NCBI RefSeq assembly: GCF_009711165.2
Contig: NZ_WMID02000028.1
Coordinates: forward strand, 1 to 64,000
Length of the DNA stretch: 64,000 bases
DNA from: Flavobacterium sp. MC2016-06
Lineage (GTDB): Bacteria > Bacteroidota > Bacteroidia > Flavobacteriales > Flavobacteriaceae
Direction of reading: 5' to 3'
The number at the start of each line of letters is the position of its first letter. The first letter of the stretch is position 1. Under the pieces are notes generated by a model. That model searched no databases, had not been told where the DNA came from, and saw nothing but the letters and a program-made list of their open reading frames with translations. Both the position numbers and the translations under genes were made by a program. Of the stretch, positions 37,525 through 43,709 are shown in pieces.

Positions 37525-38274
37525 TCATTTAAAGTTCTTTAAAAAATCTTCTTTATACGTTGGCGAGACTTCAATTTCGGCTCCATCATTTAAAGTTATA
37601 ATACCTCCTTTATTATACGATTTCACACAATTGATATTAATAATATGCGATTTGTGAACCCGGATAAAAGGCAGTGGTAAAATCTCCGAAAAATGTTTTA
37701 AAAAACGGCAGACCATTTTTTTATTTCCATTAGTTAAATGCAGATCCGTAAAATTGCCATTTCCTCTTAAACGCACGATTTCTTCCATCTTTACTACTTC
37801 AAATCCTTCGAGTGTTGGCAGAATAACTTGTTGCTTTTCGGGTTTAGATTCATGAAAATTTTCAACAATAATCTTGTTTCGATTAAAAATTTCATGATTC
37901 ATAATTTGGTGATGTACTTTGTTTACTGCAACAATCAATTCCTCAATACTAATGGGTTTTAATAAATAGTAAGCCGCACTTTGATTTAATGCTTTAAGCG
38001 AATATTCTGAAAAAGCGGTAACAAAAATAGTTTCAAATTGCAGGTCTTTGCAAGCTTCCAAAACATCAAAAGCATTTCCAAAAGGCATTTCAACATCAAG
38101 AAAAACCAATTGCGGTTGTATTTCGTGCAATAACGGAACTGCTTCTTTTATGTTTTGTGCTTCTCCTACAACCTCAACCTGCGGACAATATTTACTCAAA
38201 TAGTTTTTGAGTACTTCGCGCGCCGCTAATTCGTCTTCGACAATTACACTTTTTATCTTTTGAAAAGTCATCAT
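37525..38274 (-). CDS. LytTR-family response regulator
   Basis: The 249-residue regulator has a CheY-like receiver domain (acidic pocket E13/D14, phospho-acceptor D60 in LVFLDVEMP, T86, K106 in LLKPIS) and a C-terminal LytTR DNA-binding domain (about 150-249, with KMEEIVRLRGNGNFTDLHL and PFIRVHKSHIININCV). LytTR proteins bind paired direct repeats about two helical turns apart. It overlaps the histidine kinase gene by 4 bp. Two candidate operators lie upstream of the genes divergent from this operon. Confidence 0.95.
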   Translation of the reverse strand: MMTFQKIKSVIVEDELAAREVLKNYLSKYCPQVEVVGEAQNIKEAVPLLHEIQPQLVFLDVEMPFGNAFDVLEACKDLQFETIFVTAFSEYSLKALNQSAAYYLLKPISIEELIVAVNKVHHQIMNHEIFNRNKIIVENFHESKPEKQQVILPTLEGFEVVKMEEIVRLRGNGNFTDLHLTNGNKKMVCRFLKHFSEILPLPFIRVHKSHIININCVKSYNKGGIITLNDGAEIEVSPTYKEDFLKNFK

Positions 38275-40082
38275 ATTTTATCAATTAATGGGAAAACAAT
38301 CTGAACTATAGTTCCAGATTCTGGCAGTATTTTTTCTTTAATAAAGAAAGAAATATTCTTTTTATACAATTCATTCAGCAAGTTAATACGCTCTTTTGTA
38401 TTGCTTACGCCGCGCGATTCATGTACTTTTTGATTGCTCGTTTTAAGTTCTGAACTTTTGGTTAAACCAATTCCATTATCGTCTATTATAACCGTAACTT
38501 TTCCGTCAACCAATTTTACATTAAGCTGCAAAAGTCCTTTTTTATCCAGATAACGTAATCCGTGCCAAATTGCATTTTCGAGATGCGGCTGTAAAATCAT
38601 ATTTGGGATCAAAACCGTTTCGGCATCCAGATCTTTATCAACGTTAATTTCAAAATCAAATTTATCCTGAAAACGCAGATGTTCTAAATCGAGATATTTT
38701 TTCAAATGTTCCATTTCTTTATCCAATGTAACAAAGTCTTTATTCGAATTTTCCATCATATTCCGCATCAAATTAGAATAAGACGTCAAGTATTTATTGG
38801 CTTCTAATTCTTTATTTTCGGAAATAAATTGATTGACACTATTTAAACTATTAAAAATAAAATGCGGATTCATTTCGCGTCGCAAAGACTGTAAAGCGAT
38901 TTCTTTATTTTTGATTTTAATAGAATATAACGCTTTTGTGATAAACAGAAACAAAAGTAAAAGCAGTAAAACAGAACCTAAGAGAAAATAATTAAAGGTG
39001 TTTTTCTTTGAAATCAATTCGTCTTTCAAGGTTTTTTCTTTTTCTAACTGACGAATTTTACTTTCGGTTATCTGGAAAGTTTTAGCATCAATTAAACTAG
39101 TATCGGCTTTTATTAATTTATCAAAATTTTGAAAAAACTGTTCATACAAATTAATACTTTCTTTATCATTCCCTTTTTCTTTATAGTAGTTAATTAACTG
39201 CGACAAGCTTTTTTTGGCTTCCGCCGAATTGCCTTTGAGATACGCAATATTGTATGCTTTTTTTAAAGAACCAATCGCTTTAGTCGCTTCTTCTTTTTCA
39301 AAATAATAAGAAGCTAGAGATTGAAGTTGTTTAATTTGAGTGGAATAATCTTGTTTTGTTTCTGCTTCTGCCAAAAGCTTTTCGTTTATAACAATTGCTT
39401 TATCGATCTGATTGTCGGAAGCATACACTTTGGCAATTTCATTTTTAATTTTAATAACCGTTTCTGGTTTGTCTTTCGCGTAAGCCAGTGCTTTTTTATA
39501 ACTCTCAATCGCAACTTCTTTGTTCTTTTGCTGCAAAGAATTTTCTGCTTTCTGAACATATGCCGTAGCAACTTCATCACTTTTCTTCTCCTTTTTAAGC
39601 AGTTCAATATTCGAGTCTACGTAACCAGCCTGTGTAACGGGAGCAGCCTGATTTTTTAAACGATTAGCATCATTCAAATTAATTTCTTCGACTGCTTTAT
39701 CTTTAGAAATTGATCCCGCCACTTTATAATTCTTGATCGCTAATCCAAACTTATTTTGGCTTTCCTGAGCTTTGGCCAGATTACGCGTCACACGCGTTTT
39801 ATCTTCGTTACGATTGAGTTTAGTATAACTTTCTAATGCTTTTTTTAGATACTCCTCTCCTTTTGCATAATCTGAAGCATCAATAAATTCCTGTGCTAGT
39901 TTTTCATAACTGCCCGCAATCTTAACTTCATCATTTTCATTTAATGAATTCGATAGTTCTTCTGCTGCTTTACTGATTTTAGAACTTGAACTTTTCTCAG
40001 AAAGCGCTTGTGCTATCATTCCCTGTGGAAACAATAACACTAAAAAAAACAACCCTAAACCAATTGATAAATTACGCATCAT
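38271..40082 (-). CDS. LytS-type sensor histidine kinase with TPR sensor domain
   Basis: The 603-residue protein has a signal/anchor N-terminus, a periplasmic TPR array (about 30-330), one transmembrane helix (TFNYFLLGSVLLLLLLFLF, about 358-376), and a His_kinase/HATPase module with the phospho-acceptor H407 in EMNPHFIFNSLNSVNQF. The ATP-binding region includes NMILQPHLENAIWHGL (N-box) and VIIDDNGIGL. TPR-fused LytS kinases are common in Bacteroidota; the ligand or partner is unknown. It forms a coupled operon with the LytTR regulator and is divergent from the SIMPL gene. Confidence 0.93.
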   Translation of the reverse strand: MMRNLSIGLGLFFLVLLFPQGMIAQALSEKSSSSKISKAAEELSNSLNENDEVKIAGSYEKLAQEFIDASDYAKGEEYLKKALESYTKLNRNEDKTRVTRNLAKAQESQNKFGLAIKNYKVAGSISKDKAVEEINLNDANRLKNQAAPVTQAGYVDSNIELLKKEKKSDEVATAYVQKAENSLQQKNKEVAIESYKKALAYAKDKPETVIKIKNEIAKVYASDNQIDKAIVINEKLLAEAETKQDYSTQIKQLQSLASYYFEKEEATKAIGSLKKAYNIAYLKGNSAEAKKSLSQLINYYKEKGNDKESINLYEQFFQNFDKLIKADTSLIDAKTFQITESKIRQLEKEKTLKDELISKKNTFNYFLLGSVLLLLLLFLFITKALYSIKIKNKEIALQSLRREMNPHFIFNSLNSVNQFISENKELEANKYLTSYSNLMRNMMENSNKDFVTLDKEMEHLKKYLDLEHLRFQDKFDFEINVDKDLDAETVLIPNMILQPHLENAIWHGLRYLDKKGLLQLNVKLVDGKVTVIIDDNGIGLTKSSELKTSNQKVHESRGVSNTKERINLLNELYKKNISFFIKEKILPESGTIVQIVFPLIDKI

Positions 40083-40140
40083 TAATAAGTTATTTTGAAA
40101 ATGTAAAGTAACCTAATTACAAATTCCGATCCTATATTTT

Positions 40141-40205
40141 TCACCAAGTCAAAAGACCCGTTCACCCATTCTGTCAAAAATACGTTTTTCCGATCAATAC
40201 ATTTG
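40141..40205 (+). promoter_or_regulatory. Candidate LytTR operator and promoter of the SIMPL gene
   Basis: Direct repeats starting TCACC at 40141 and 40162 (21 nt apart, two helical turns) are followed by the -7 box TACATTTG at 40198-40205. The block aligns without gaps to 41223-41287: the first 15 nt are identical, the second repeat shares TCACCC and the A-run after it, and the -7 boxes fall at the same offset. This is the layout expected for an activator bound just upstream of the -33 region. Confidence 0.65.
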
Positions 40206-40229
40206 CTCTGTAATCTTAAAACCATAATC

Positions 40230-41207
40230 ATGAGAAAATTATTCTTTACAATTTTAGCTTTACCATTTTGTCAATTCATAATCGCACAAGCTTCTGGCAA
40301 TGTTAACTATCAAAATCAGATCCGTTATAGCAATAATACGATTAACGTAGACTTTCCTTCCGATTCCGATGTTGTCATAAGTGTAAAAGGACTCACAAAT
40401 GTTAAAGCAGATGCTTATGTCGCCATTTTCAGCACTACTCAAACTGGCAAAACAACTCAGGAAGTAAATGAATTAATTGACAAACGAATTACACAATCGC
40501 TGAATGAAATCAAACTTAAAAAAAGCGTAGAAACTTTTGTCGATATGATTTCGTTTGTTCCTGTGTATGAATATGAAGTCGAAAAGAAAGTTTTTAGTCG
40601 TAAAACCTATAATGAAGTTCCTGTAGGTTTTGAATTAAAGAAAAATATTCATATCAAATTTACAGATCCAAATCAGCTGAATGACTTTATTACAATATTA
40701 TCCAACCATGAAATATACGATCTGGTAAGAGTTGATTACTTCTCGAGTGCATTGGAAATAATTAAGAAAGAAATGATGACTAAAGCTAAACTTCTGGTTC
40801 AGGAAAAAATGAAAAACTATGAAGCTTTATTAGGAGAAACATTTACCAATGCCGAGAAAAAGATAATCGATGATTACAACGTAACCTTACCGGTAGAAAT
40901 GTACAGGTCTTATGAAGCTTACAATAGCTCTTCTTTAAACTTAAAAAAAGCGGCCAACGTCAATCAGGTTAGTAAATCTACTACACTTTATTATCAACCG
41001 ATATTTAATAAAGAGTTTGATTTTGTAATTAATTCTACTGTATTAGAACCTGTAATTCAAGTGCAATATGAAGTTAAAATAGCTATTAACAGAGAAAAAG
41101 AAAAGAAACCAATTTCAATTGCAAAAGCAGATAAAGAATATATTCTGGTTACTCCAAATGGGGATTTAAAAACACTAAATATAAATACACCCAAACAAAA
41201 TAATTAG
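40230..41207 (+). CDS. SIMPL (DUF541)-domain exported protein
   Basis: I start at MRKLFFTILALPFCQFIIAQ (ATG at 40230), a signal peptide; an upstream TTG-initiated frame overlaps the -7 box. The 325-residue protein resembles SIMPL/YggE proteins: VISVKGLTNVKADAYVAIF early, the FELKKNIHIKFTDPNQLNDFI strand set, and LVRVDYFSSALEIIKKEMMTKA. The C-terminus is beta-rich and lacks a membrane anchor. SIMPL proteins are periplasmic and linked to envelope or oxidative stress, but the mechanism is unclear. The gene is divergent from the LytS/LytTR operon and likely under its control. Confidence 0.78.
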   Translation: MRKLFFTILALPFCQFIIAQASGNVNYQNQIRYSNNTINVDFPSDSDVVISVKGLTNVKADAYVAIFSTTQTGKTTQEVNELIDKRITQSLNEIKLKKSVETFVDMISFVPVYEYEVEKKVFSRKTYNEVPVGFELKKNIHIKFTDPNQLNDFITILSNHEIYDLVRVDYFSSALEIIKKEMMTKAKLLVQEKMKNYEALLGETFTNAEKKIIDDYNVTLPVEMYRSYEAYNSSSLNLKKAANVNQVSKSTTLYYQPIFNKEFDFVINSTVLEPVIQVQYEVKIAINREKEKKPISIAKADKEYILVTPNGDLKTLNINTPKQNN

Positions 41208-41222
41208 TGCTGTAAAACCAAT

Positions 41223-41287
41223 TCACCAAGTCAAAAGCCGGTTTCACCCTTTCTCCGAAAAATGAATTCATTATGTCTTTAAGTTTG
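41223..41287 (+). promoter_or_regulatory. Candidate LytTR operator and promoter of the L,D-transpeptidase gene
   Basis: The TCACC direct repeats at 41223 and 41244 are 21 nt apart, and the -7 box TAAGTTTG lies at 41280-41287. Spacing from the second repeat to the -7 box is 36 nt, exactly as in the SIMPL promoter block at 40141-40205. Confidence 0.65.
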
Positions 41288-41318
41288 ATTTGTAATTAAC
41301 AATTAAAAACTGGAAATC

Positions 41319-41942
41319 ATGAAAGCAGCTCTTTTTATCTTGGCAGTTACTTTTTCGTTTGCAAGCTGCAACAAAAGCAAAGCAAATTCACAAAACCACA
41401 ATACAATTAAAAATTCAAAACCGATTTACTCCTACGAAGCGAAACTAAAAAGTGAGATAACCGAGATGAAAAGTTTTATGAAGAAAGCTTCAAAATACAA
41501 TTCTGATGTTGCGTTCTTTTTAGATATGAGGATTGAATCTGGAAAAAATCGGTTTTTTATTTATGATTTAAAACATAACAAACTATTGGACAAAGGTTTG
41601 GTTGGACATGGTTCTGGCTCGGAAACAGGAATTCTGGGAAAGCTGAAATTCAGCAACCTCAAAGATTCGTATTGCAGTTCATTGGGAAAATATGCTATTG
41701 GCAGTTCTTATTCTGGAACGTTTGGAAAAGCATATAAATTATATGGTTTAGACCAAACCAATAGTAATGCTTTAGACAGGAATATAGTGCTTCACAAATA
41801 TGCATCTGTTCCGTTTGAAGAACAACCCTATCCAATTTGCAATAGTCTGGGCTGTCCAATGGTAAATGAAAAGTTTTTTGGCGTAATCGAAAAAATGATT
41901 GATAACTCAAAAAAGAAAATTATTCTGGTTATGTATTATTAA
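41319..41942 (+). CDS. Murein L,D-transpeptidase-like (YkuD_2) lipoprotein
   Basis: The 207-residue protein starts with a lipoprotein signal (TFSFASC, Cys17). The catalytic domain has RFFIYDLKHNKLLDKGLVGHG, GKYAIGSSYSGTFGKAYKL and the nucleophile region IVLHKYASVP...SLGCPMV with H159 and C179, matching the YkuD_2 variant of L,D-transpeptidases that form or cleave 3-3 cross-links or attach proteins to peptidoglycan. It is likely outer-membrane anchored. It has its own promoter matching that of the SIMPL gene, suggesting joint control by the LytTR system. Confidence 0.88.
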   Translation: MKAALFILAVTFSFASCNKSKANSQNHNTIKNSKPIYSYEAKLKSEITEMKSFMKKASKYNSDVAFFLDMRIESGKNRFFIYDLKHNKLLDKGLVGHGSGSETGILGKLKFSNLKDSYCSSLGKYAIGSSYSGTFGKAYKLYGLDQTNSNALDRNIVLHKYASVPFEEQPYPICNSLGCPMVNEKFFGVIEKMIDNSKKKIILVMYY

Positions 41943-42086: not shown

Positions 42087-43709
42087 ATGATTAAAAAACA
42101 AGCAACAGCAATTTTAATATTGTTATCTTCTTTTGTATTTGCACAAAAACCAATTTTCACAACAGCAAAAGTAAAAGCTGCAACGGTATATTTTAATGCG
42201 GCAGAAATTTCGCAGACTGCTTCTTTAATCCTGCCTTTGGGAACAAGCGAAATTGTGGTAAAAAATGTAGCTGTAAATTTAAACGAGAGTTCTGTTCAAA
42301 TTGGTGCACCAGCAAACGTTACAGTTCTTTCGGTTCAGTTTACCAACAATTATATCTCTGAATATGAAGTTGACACCAAATCACCAGCATTAAAAAGAGT
42401 AAGAGATAGTATTGTTTTAGTTCAAAAAGAAATCCAAAAAGTCAATAATTCTATAAATTCTGAAACAAAAACCATTGCACTTTTAGACAAAAACCAACAG
42501 GTTTCTGGAACTAATTCAGGTTTAAATGTAACAGAATTAATAAAAATGGTTGAGTATTACAAGAACAAACAACTCGAAATTGCCAATTCAATTAATGTTC
42601 TTTCTGAAAAACAGCAAAAGCTGAATGAAACACTTCAAAAACTAAATAATAAACTTGAAGTTGATACAAGTAAAGAAGAAAAGACTTCGTCTGGAAAATT
42701 AATTGTTCAAGTTATGAATAATCTTGCCGGAGCTGTGCCTTTAGAAATATCCTATTTAACCAATAATGCAACCTGGACTCCGTTCTATGATTTACGTGCA
42801 GAAAGTGTAACAGCGCCTATCAATATGATGTATAAAGCACAAGTTGTGCAAAACACGGGTATTGACTGGAAAAAAGTAAAACTTACTTTGTCAAGTGGTT
42901 ATCCTAACCAGAATAATCAGGCACCCATATTGAGTTCATGGTTTTTAAGCAATAATGCAAATTATGGCTACAAGCAAAGAAATGCTGCGAACCAACTGCA
43001 AAGTGCTTATGGTGCTATGAGAGAAAAAAAGATAAGCCAAGAGGCAAATGCTCCAATAATGGCCGAATCTTCTGTTTCAGATTATACTACTGTTGCAGAA
43101 AATCAGTTGAATATTTCTTTTGATATTGATATTCCGTATGATATTCTTTCTAATGGAAAAATACACAGTGTATCTCTTAAAGAAATAAAACTTCCAGCTT
43201 CGTATAAATATTATGCAGTTCCGAAGGTAGAAAATGAAGCGTTCCTTCTTGCCGAAATTGCCGATTACAGTAAATATAATTTATTAAGAGGTGAAGCCAA
43301 TATTATTTTTGAAGGTATGTATGTGGGGAAAACTTTTATCGAACCTGGTCAAACCAGCGATACTTTGAATTTAAGTATGGGACGTGATAAAAAAGTATCT
43401 ATAAAACGTGAAAAAGTGGCGGACAAATCTGGAACTAAGTTTTTATCTTCTAAAAAAGAGCAGACTTTTACGTACGATATTACGATAAGAAATAACAAAA
43501 AAGAAGCTGTTGAACTACTACTAAAAGATCAATACCCGTTAAGCACTAATAAAGAAATTGAGGTTGAATTATTACAAAGCGACAATGCAAAAGTAAATGT
43601 AGAAACAGGAATATTGACTTGGCAATTGCAGTTGAAACCAAATGAAACCAAGAAAATCAGAATTAGTTATAAAGTAAGATATCCAAAAGATCAGAATTTA
43701 AATTTATAA
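42087..43709 (+). CDS. MuiA-family (DUF4140/DUF4139) exported protein
   Basis: The 540-residue protein begins with a signal peptide (LILLSSFVFAQ), then a DUF4140 domain (about 20-115: KAATVYFNAAEISQTASLIL), a coiled-coil segment (about 118-205), and the DUF4139 domain (about 210-540: VPLEISYLTNNATWTPFYDL and GIDWKKVKLTLSSGYP). The family is named after the mucoidy inhibitor A homologues; its mechanism is unknown. It follows the L,D-transpeptidase gene and is closed by a terminator, but lacks the TCACC operator block, so its membership in the regulon is uncertain. Confidence 0.88.
   Translation: MIKKQATAILILLSSFVFAQKPIFTTAKVKAATVYFNAAEISQTASLILPLGTSEIVVKNVAVNLNESSVQIGAPANVTVLSVQFTNNYISEYEVDTKSPALKRVRDSIVLVQKEIQKVNNSINSETKTIALLDKNQQVSGTNSGLNVTELIKMVEYYKNKQLEIANSINVLSEKQQKLNETLQKLNNKLEVDTSKEEKTSSGKLIVQVMNNLAGAVPLEISYLTNNATWTPFYDLRAESVTAPINMMYKAQVVQNTGIDWKKVKLTLSSGYPNQNNQAPILSSWFLSNNANYGYKQRNAANQLQSAYGAMREKKISQEANAPIMAESSVSDYTTVAENQLNISFDIDIPYDILSNGKIHSVSLKEIKLPASYKYYAVPKVENEAFLLAEIADYSKYNLLRGEANIIFEGMYVGKTFIEPGQTSDTLNLSMGRDKKVSIKREKVADKSGTKFLSSKKEQTFTYDITIRNNKKEAVELLLKDQYPLSTNKEIEVELLQSDNAKVNVETGILTWQLQLKPNETKKIRISYKVRYPKDQNLNL

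Follow-up and report, generated by a model that had tools for sequence, protein, structure and literature searches.

Two similar blocks of DNA lie ahead of cell-envelope genes in Flavobacterium sp. MC2016-06, next to the genes of a LytTR-type two-component system, and the question addressed here is what these blocks are and which protein acts on them. The window, i.e., the whole stretch of DNA analysed, comprises 64,000 nucleotides of contig C28 from a genome of 6.17 Mb. As the original prediction had described, blocks 40141–40205 and 41223–41287 align without gaps (44 of 65 nt identical), both hold TCACC repeats 21 nt apart with a TAnnTTTG box beginning 36 nt past the start of the second TCACC, and both precede envelope genes, which Pfam assigns to the SIMPL (PF04402) and L,D-transpeptidase (PF13645) families (Table 1). 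The half-sites are TTYACCAAGT-like, 10 nt long and separated by 11 nt, in agreement with the definition of LytTR-type operators as two repeats of 9–11 nt with a spacer of 11–13 nt (PMC4847170; this and the other papers are cited for the excerpts available). The box is of the kind that Flavobacterium promoters share as the −7 box, at positions −12 to −5 (PMC9723704). For the SIMPL gene, the ATG start is preferred over a TTG at 40203, which overlaps the −7 box. A TGTAAT-like stretch right behind the −7 box (40206–40215 and 41288–41297) is kept in most of 61 aligned sites.

Table 1. Features of the locus and of the two predicted operator-promoter blocks (positions in the window)
Feature	Position	Strand	Remarks
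Response regulator	37525..38274	−	Receiver and LytTR domains; FIRVHKS at residues 203–209
Histidine kinase	38271..40082	−	TPR repeats and His_kinase PF06580
Possible −7-like box TACTTTAC	40103..40110	−	Kinase promoter, far side of operator 1
Predicted operator 1	40140..40170	+	Half-sites TTCACCAAGT (40140–40149) and TTCACCCATT (40161–40170), 21-nt period
SIMPL promoter −7 box TACATTTG	40198..40205	+	Predicted start ~40210 if the box lies at −12 to −5
SIMPL-domain protein (PF04402)	40230..41207	+	Divergent from kinase
Predicted operator 2	41222..41252	+	Half-sites TTCACCAAGT (41222–41231) and TTCACCCTTT (41243–41252)
−7 box TAAGTTTG behind operator 2	41280..41287	+	Predicted start ~41292
L,D-transpeptidase YkuD_2 (PF13645)	41319..41942	+	Likely lipoprotein
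DUF4140/DUF4139 protein	42087..43709	+	3' of the L,D-transpeptidase gene; MuiA-family model over cut-off

The adjoining regulator scores over the Pfam cut-offs for both PF00072 and PF04397, and its FIRVHKS stretch corresponds to the FhRhHRS motif of LytTR proteins with K in place of R (PMC4227749), which places it among the LytTR response regulators. Within this stretch, F203, R205, H207, and S209 do not vary across an alignment of 101 regulators, in which some species are counted twice. The best 60 of 113 matches to solved structures were judged to be receiver-domain matches by the matched stretch and name, and none of these 60 offers a LytTR-DNA template. For the kinase, Pfam finds only TPR families and His_kinase PF06580 at an E value of 0.001. 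Kinases of the LytS/BtsS type are defined by a LytS-type (5TMR) sensor domain, which Pfam did not detect here at the same threshold, so that placing the kinase in that type is not supported. The original prediction of a neighbouring LytTR/LytS operon consequently stands for the regulator, whereas the kinase is of a TPR type. The Escherichia coli systems BtsSR and YpdAB also combine a LytTR response regulator with a cognate kinase but differ in these kinase features, and BtsR, although the best NCBIfam model for the regulator, reaches 97.1 bits against a cut-off of 246.

Very probably, both blocks represent the same operator-promoter module, through which the adjacent LytTR regulator would activate envelope genes. 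From the site, its geometry, its conservation, and its link to the two-component pair, all of which are visible in the sequences, we infer the following course of events. The TPR kinase would phosphorylate the regulator upon an envelope-side signal, and two regulator molecules would bind both half-sites (TTYACCAAGT, then a TTYACCMWTT-like one) on the same side of the helix, directly ahead of the sigma-A −7 box. With this box at −12 to −5, the half-sites would occupy approximately positions −70 to −61 and −49 to −40 relative to the predicted start. The bound regulator would then turn on the SIMPL gene and the L,D-transpeptidase/DUF4139 genes, and possibly it would also control its own divergent operon. 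Toward the kinase, 66 of 71 loci contain a box of the form TA(n)CTTT[AG], which is 28 nt away in 44 of them, 23 nt in 16, and 27 nt in 6, with 5 loci unmatched; because this spacing varies, autoregulation is only weakly suggested, as a possibility. Another LytTR protein could also bind the operator, since the genome encodes 28 LytTR domains.

The direction of control can be judged from the position of the half-sites. Activation by the phosphorylated regulator is favoured because they immediately precede the promoter, an arrangement also seen in LytTR systems that activate (PMC6193735), among them AgrA at P2/P3, where the site is upstream, while the site at which AgrA represses lies downstream of its promoter (PMC4227749). 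The same comparison makes it unlikely that the regulator binds the block to keep the promoter repressed in the absence of a signal, a reading on which the fixed spacing between operator and box is silent.

A kinase search in one-per-species genomes yielded 76 loci (close relatives of the studied genome are mostly named Flavobacterium). The exact repeat TCACC-N16-TCACC was present in 58 of them, each time oriented divergently to the kinase gene, and the literal pattern of the original prediction in 52. With a weight matrix built from the kinase-locus sites and the two sites of the window, leaving out the −7 box, hits above 13 were obtained in 71 of the 76 loci, a count that is partly circular as the matrix derives from the same loci; all 98 hits lay on the divergent strand, and one shuffle per locus gave at most 5.8. 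A TAnnTTT[GA] box follows the second TCACC at 36 nt in 94 of these 98 operators and at 37 nt in the remaining 4; with the stricter form TAnnTTTG, exactly 36 nt is observed in 85. Taking the first match instead gives 92 at 36 nt, 4 at 37 nt, and 2 at 28 nt, and both of the last also carry a box at 36 nt. Each of the 98 operators therefore has the box at 36–37 nt and lies next to a core promoter, as expected of a LytTR-type operator. These counts are not independent: common descent accounts for part of the conservation of adjacent DNA, and some genomes belong to more than one set (13 of 39 stretches compared come from the same genomes as the kinase-search loci).

The first open reading frame behind the 98 operators encodes a vWA protein in 53 cases, SIMPL in 24, a 434-aa protein in 9, a second SIMPL type in 5, and other products in 3, while the script found none in 4. 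Operators were thus found upstream of SIMPL orthologues as originally proposed, with the qualification that the usual main target is a vWA lipoprotein, which is missing from the genome studied here. In many relatives, the second half of the SIMPL operator reads TTGACC, as opposed to TTCACC in the window.

Five of the 76 kinase loci gave no matrix hit. One contig starts inside the kinase (L076), two loci have 21-nt repeats of TTYACCCWTT type (L075, with TTGACC as its second half, and L077), and L078 was rejected as an orthologue at 30% identity. In L070, the regulator is 65% identical to that of the window, and neither a matrix hit nor a convincing repeat was found upstream of the kinase. The upstream stretch of L070 holds short GAGACTTGAGAC-like repeats instead.

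Scanning whole genomes leads to the same association from the side of the site. In a set of 392 genomes of the phylum, the pattern TTCACCAA-N13-TTCACC matched in 83, most of which are not of AAGT type and presumably reflect chance; an AATT match that was inspected (G170) lies at no such locus, as do two AAGT-type matches (G327 and G275). An AAGT-type site at a locus of this kind occurs in 15 of the 392 genomes, including the one studied here, and the other 14, when inspected, all had a kinase homologue with a vWA gene nearby, and 13 had the regulator; in the remaining one (G265), the kinase gene is cut by the start of the contig. The best regulator matches in the phylum set are 64–100% identical in 18 genomes and then drop to 50% or less, and in each of these 18 genomes (regulator identity of 64% or more) the locus carries the operator, in 14 exactly and in 4 as variants with mostly TTTACC half-sites.

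Within the genus (199 genomes), 40 genomes have a close regulator (E value up to 1e-90) and 32 have a literal match to the site, which falls in 29 of the 40 regulator-positive genomes and in 3 of the 159 others (Fisher P = 1.5e-22, a value that overstates independence because the genomes are related and the sets overlap). An AAGT/AAAT-type site at the locus is present in 28 of the 40 and in none of the 159; all 28 sites are on the contig of the regulator, 1.9–3.1 kb away, and one of them (G567) reads AAAT. Matches with other letters only (G580, G436, G441, and G503) were not counted, extra strings of this sort in G021 and G497 were dropped, and the reversed pattern gave two matches (G467 and G245). 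In every one of the 12 regulator-positive genomes without a strict site (G257 and 11 others), a variant was found next to the kinase gene, with 13.5 as the lowest score (L208). The site therefore stands beside the regulator in 40 of 40 genus genomes (28 strict, 12 variant), the 159 others having been scanned with the strict pattern only. Co-occurrence of pattern and regulator in related genomes, which the original prediction had named as its check, was accordingly found in all 40 regulator-bearing genomes of the genus set and in 18 of 18 of the phylum set, locus L070 being the exception, and a lack of conservation in orthologous promoters, named as the outcome that would speak against it, did not occur.

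Alternatively, the block might be a conserved vWA/SIMPL promoter or operator for another factor that adjoins the LytTR operon merely as a neighbour. That the block includes the −7 box, that confirmed sites are found at this locus only, and that L070 has a regulator without the site would all suit this reading. The genomes in which vWA and regulator are separated speak against it, and so does the 21-nt direct repeat, which has the LytTR form (PMC4847170). The vWA gene was detected in 38 of the 199 genus genomes (E value up to 1e-60), of which 36 also have the regulator whereas G476 and G549 lack it. In the 16–17 kb around vWA in these two, the kinase, regulator, SIMPL, and L,D-transpeptidase genes were not found, and neither was an operator, the best matrix score being −15.5. 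Conversely, the regulator and operators are present with no vWA at the cut-offs used in the genome studied here and in G422, G503, and G574. Because vWA-only genomes lack the site (2 of 2) and vWA-less regulator genomes keep it, the site appears to belong to the two-component system; this is the strongest evidence that it follows that system and not one target gene, regulator and kinase being inseparable by co-occurrence. Control by another factor is therefore improbable, somewhat more so than repression, and the comparison supports the reading of the blocks as a new LytTR operator, with binding by the regulator as its predicted part. In G549, the DUF4139 protein (L217:10181-12004) is longer and has an inserted segment, which we take to resemble the plug of TonB receptors.

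In the studied genome, the literal pattern with a second spacer of 29–33 nt has two forward matches and no reverse match, both in the window, and the reversed-pattern control has none; the two blocks are the only strict matches in the 6.17 Mb. Although Flavobacterium promoters do share a −7 box (PMC9723704), a chance likeness of two AT-rich promoters is practically negligible given two exact genomic matches against none in the control and conservation over many species. A search for TTCACCAAGT-N11-TTCACC with up to two mismatches returned eight sites, including the two known ones, against six in the control, so that only the two exact sites stand out. A wider regulon was rejected on this count, as the scan revealed no further sites in the genome to support one.

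The L,D-transpeptidase gene behind operator 2 represents a derived arrangement. Gene order in 11 relatives with the junction read is operator, vWA, L,D-transpeptidase, and vWA has no match in the genome studied here, a negative that would carry little weight by itself, but the query used does find the gene in 38 of the 199 genus genomes. From 41222 to 41348–41395, the window aligns with the operator, leader, and vWA gene start of five relatives (127/149 for L010), and from 41392–41406 onward with their L,D-transpeptidase gene (133/155 for L010). These alignments thus indicate a local deletion that joined the promoter and signal-peptide region of vWA to the L,D-transpeptidase gene, and only because of this deletion does that gene directly follow the operator. 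The first ~26–29 codons of the gene resemble the vWA gene of relatives, with the junction at ~41395–41405; the signal-peptide region (41319–41405) appears derived from the deleted gene.

Direct-repeat operators of LytTR proteins are well known, and the present one appears to be a new member of that kind, with predicted binding. It shares with the operators of AgrA, YpdB, VirR, and HdrR two direct repeats of 9–11 nt, spacers of 11–13 nt, a position adjacent to the promoter, and a LytTR protein with an FhRhHRS-like motif, and differs from them in its TTYACCAAGT half-sites, its Bacteroidota-type −7 box, and the TPR kinase. Sites of LytTR regulatory systems (LRS) are also direct repeats, mostly starting with ACC or similar, with spacers of 11–13 nt (PMC6193735, Table 3), and the LRS-like operons of Bacteroides have 11-nt repeats, an 11-nt spacer, and a TATCTTTG box, like here, but half-sites TCCGGTATTCA and ACCGGAAATCA, unlike here (PMC6193735). 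However, LRS pairs a LytTR regulator with a membrane inhibitor, whereas this operon encodes a receiver domain and a histidine kinase, which sets it apart from LRS. A literature search, mostly at the level of titles and with subscription journals largely absent, returned no operator with a TTYACCAAGT-like half-site or for the system of this regulator; the available part of a paper on F. johnsoniae coevolution mentions only a LytTR mutation. The locus unites the little-understood envelope families vWA lipoprotein, SIMPL, YkuD_2, and MuiA/DUF4139, and an operator delimited this sharply, together with its likely partner, cases of natural loss, and a lineage with changed letters, provides a handle on the signal, the regulon, and LytTR recognition.

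This last lineage comprises ten loci from other genera of the family, with regulators 41–48% identical over the aligned stretch; 8 of them have a vWA gene close to that of the kinase. At a loose score for which shuffles expect 0.33 per locus, 8 of the 10 show a TTYACTCATT-type repeat with a 21-nt period divergent to the kinase, one case being doubtful (L204); L200 has a hit away from the locus only and L201 none. Repeat and box occur together in 5 of the 10 loci, always with a distance of 37 nt, compared with a single hit among 300 resampled loci, and these remote-class counts are partly circular because TTYACTCATT was read from the same loci. In remote orthologues, the geometry thus seems to be retained although the letters differ. 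The DNA-motif residues are invariant across both regulator classes and other residues differ, which suggests that half-site letters and regulator protein changed together. We are evenly divided on the broader view that a TPR kinase, a LytTR regulator, and vWA and SIMPL envelope proteins form a dedicated one-locus module of the Bacteroidota. On this view, the half-sites and the LytTR domain changed jointly from lineage to lineage, giving TTYACCAAGT in one and TTYACTCATT in another, with hardly any change in the repeat period or the distance to the box. If true, the regulator-operator pairs could be used to read the LytTR recognition code.

Some loci deviate in the number of operators or in the genes behind them. 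Loci of family f2 (L146, L147, L149, and L194) have two or three operators, several with the full TTCACCAAGT in both halves. In L051, L055, and L056, an operator precedes a small gene containing an ILDTRS... stretch, presumably rhodanese-like. The operator-linked 434-aa protein (L037:3419-4723) exceeds the cut-off for the squalene-hopene cyclase C-terminal model, of which it covers a part, and also matches a TED model, though below cut-off.
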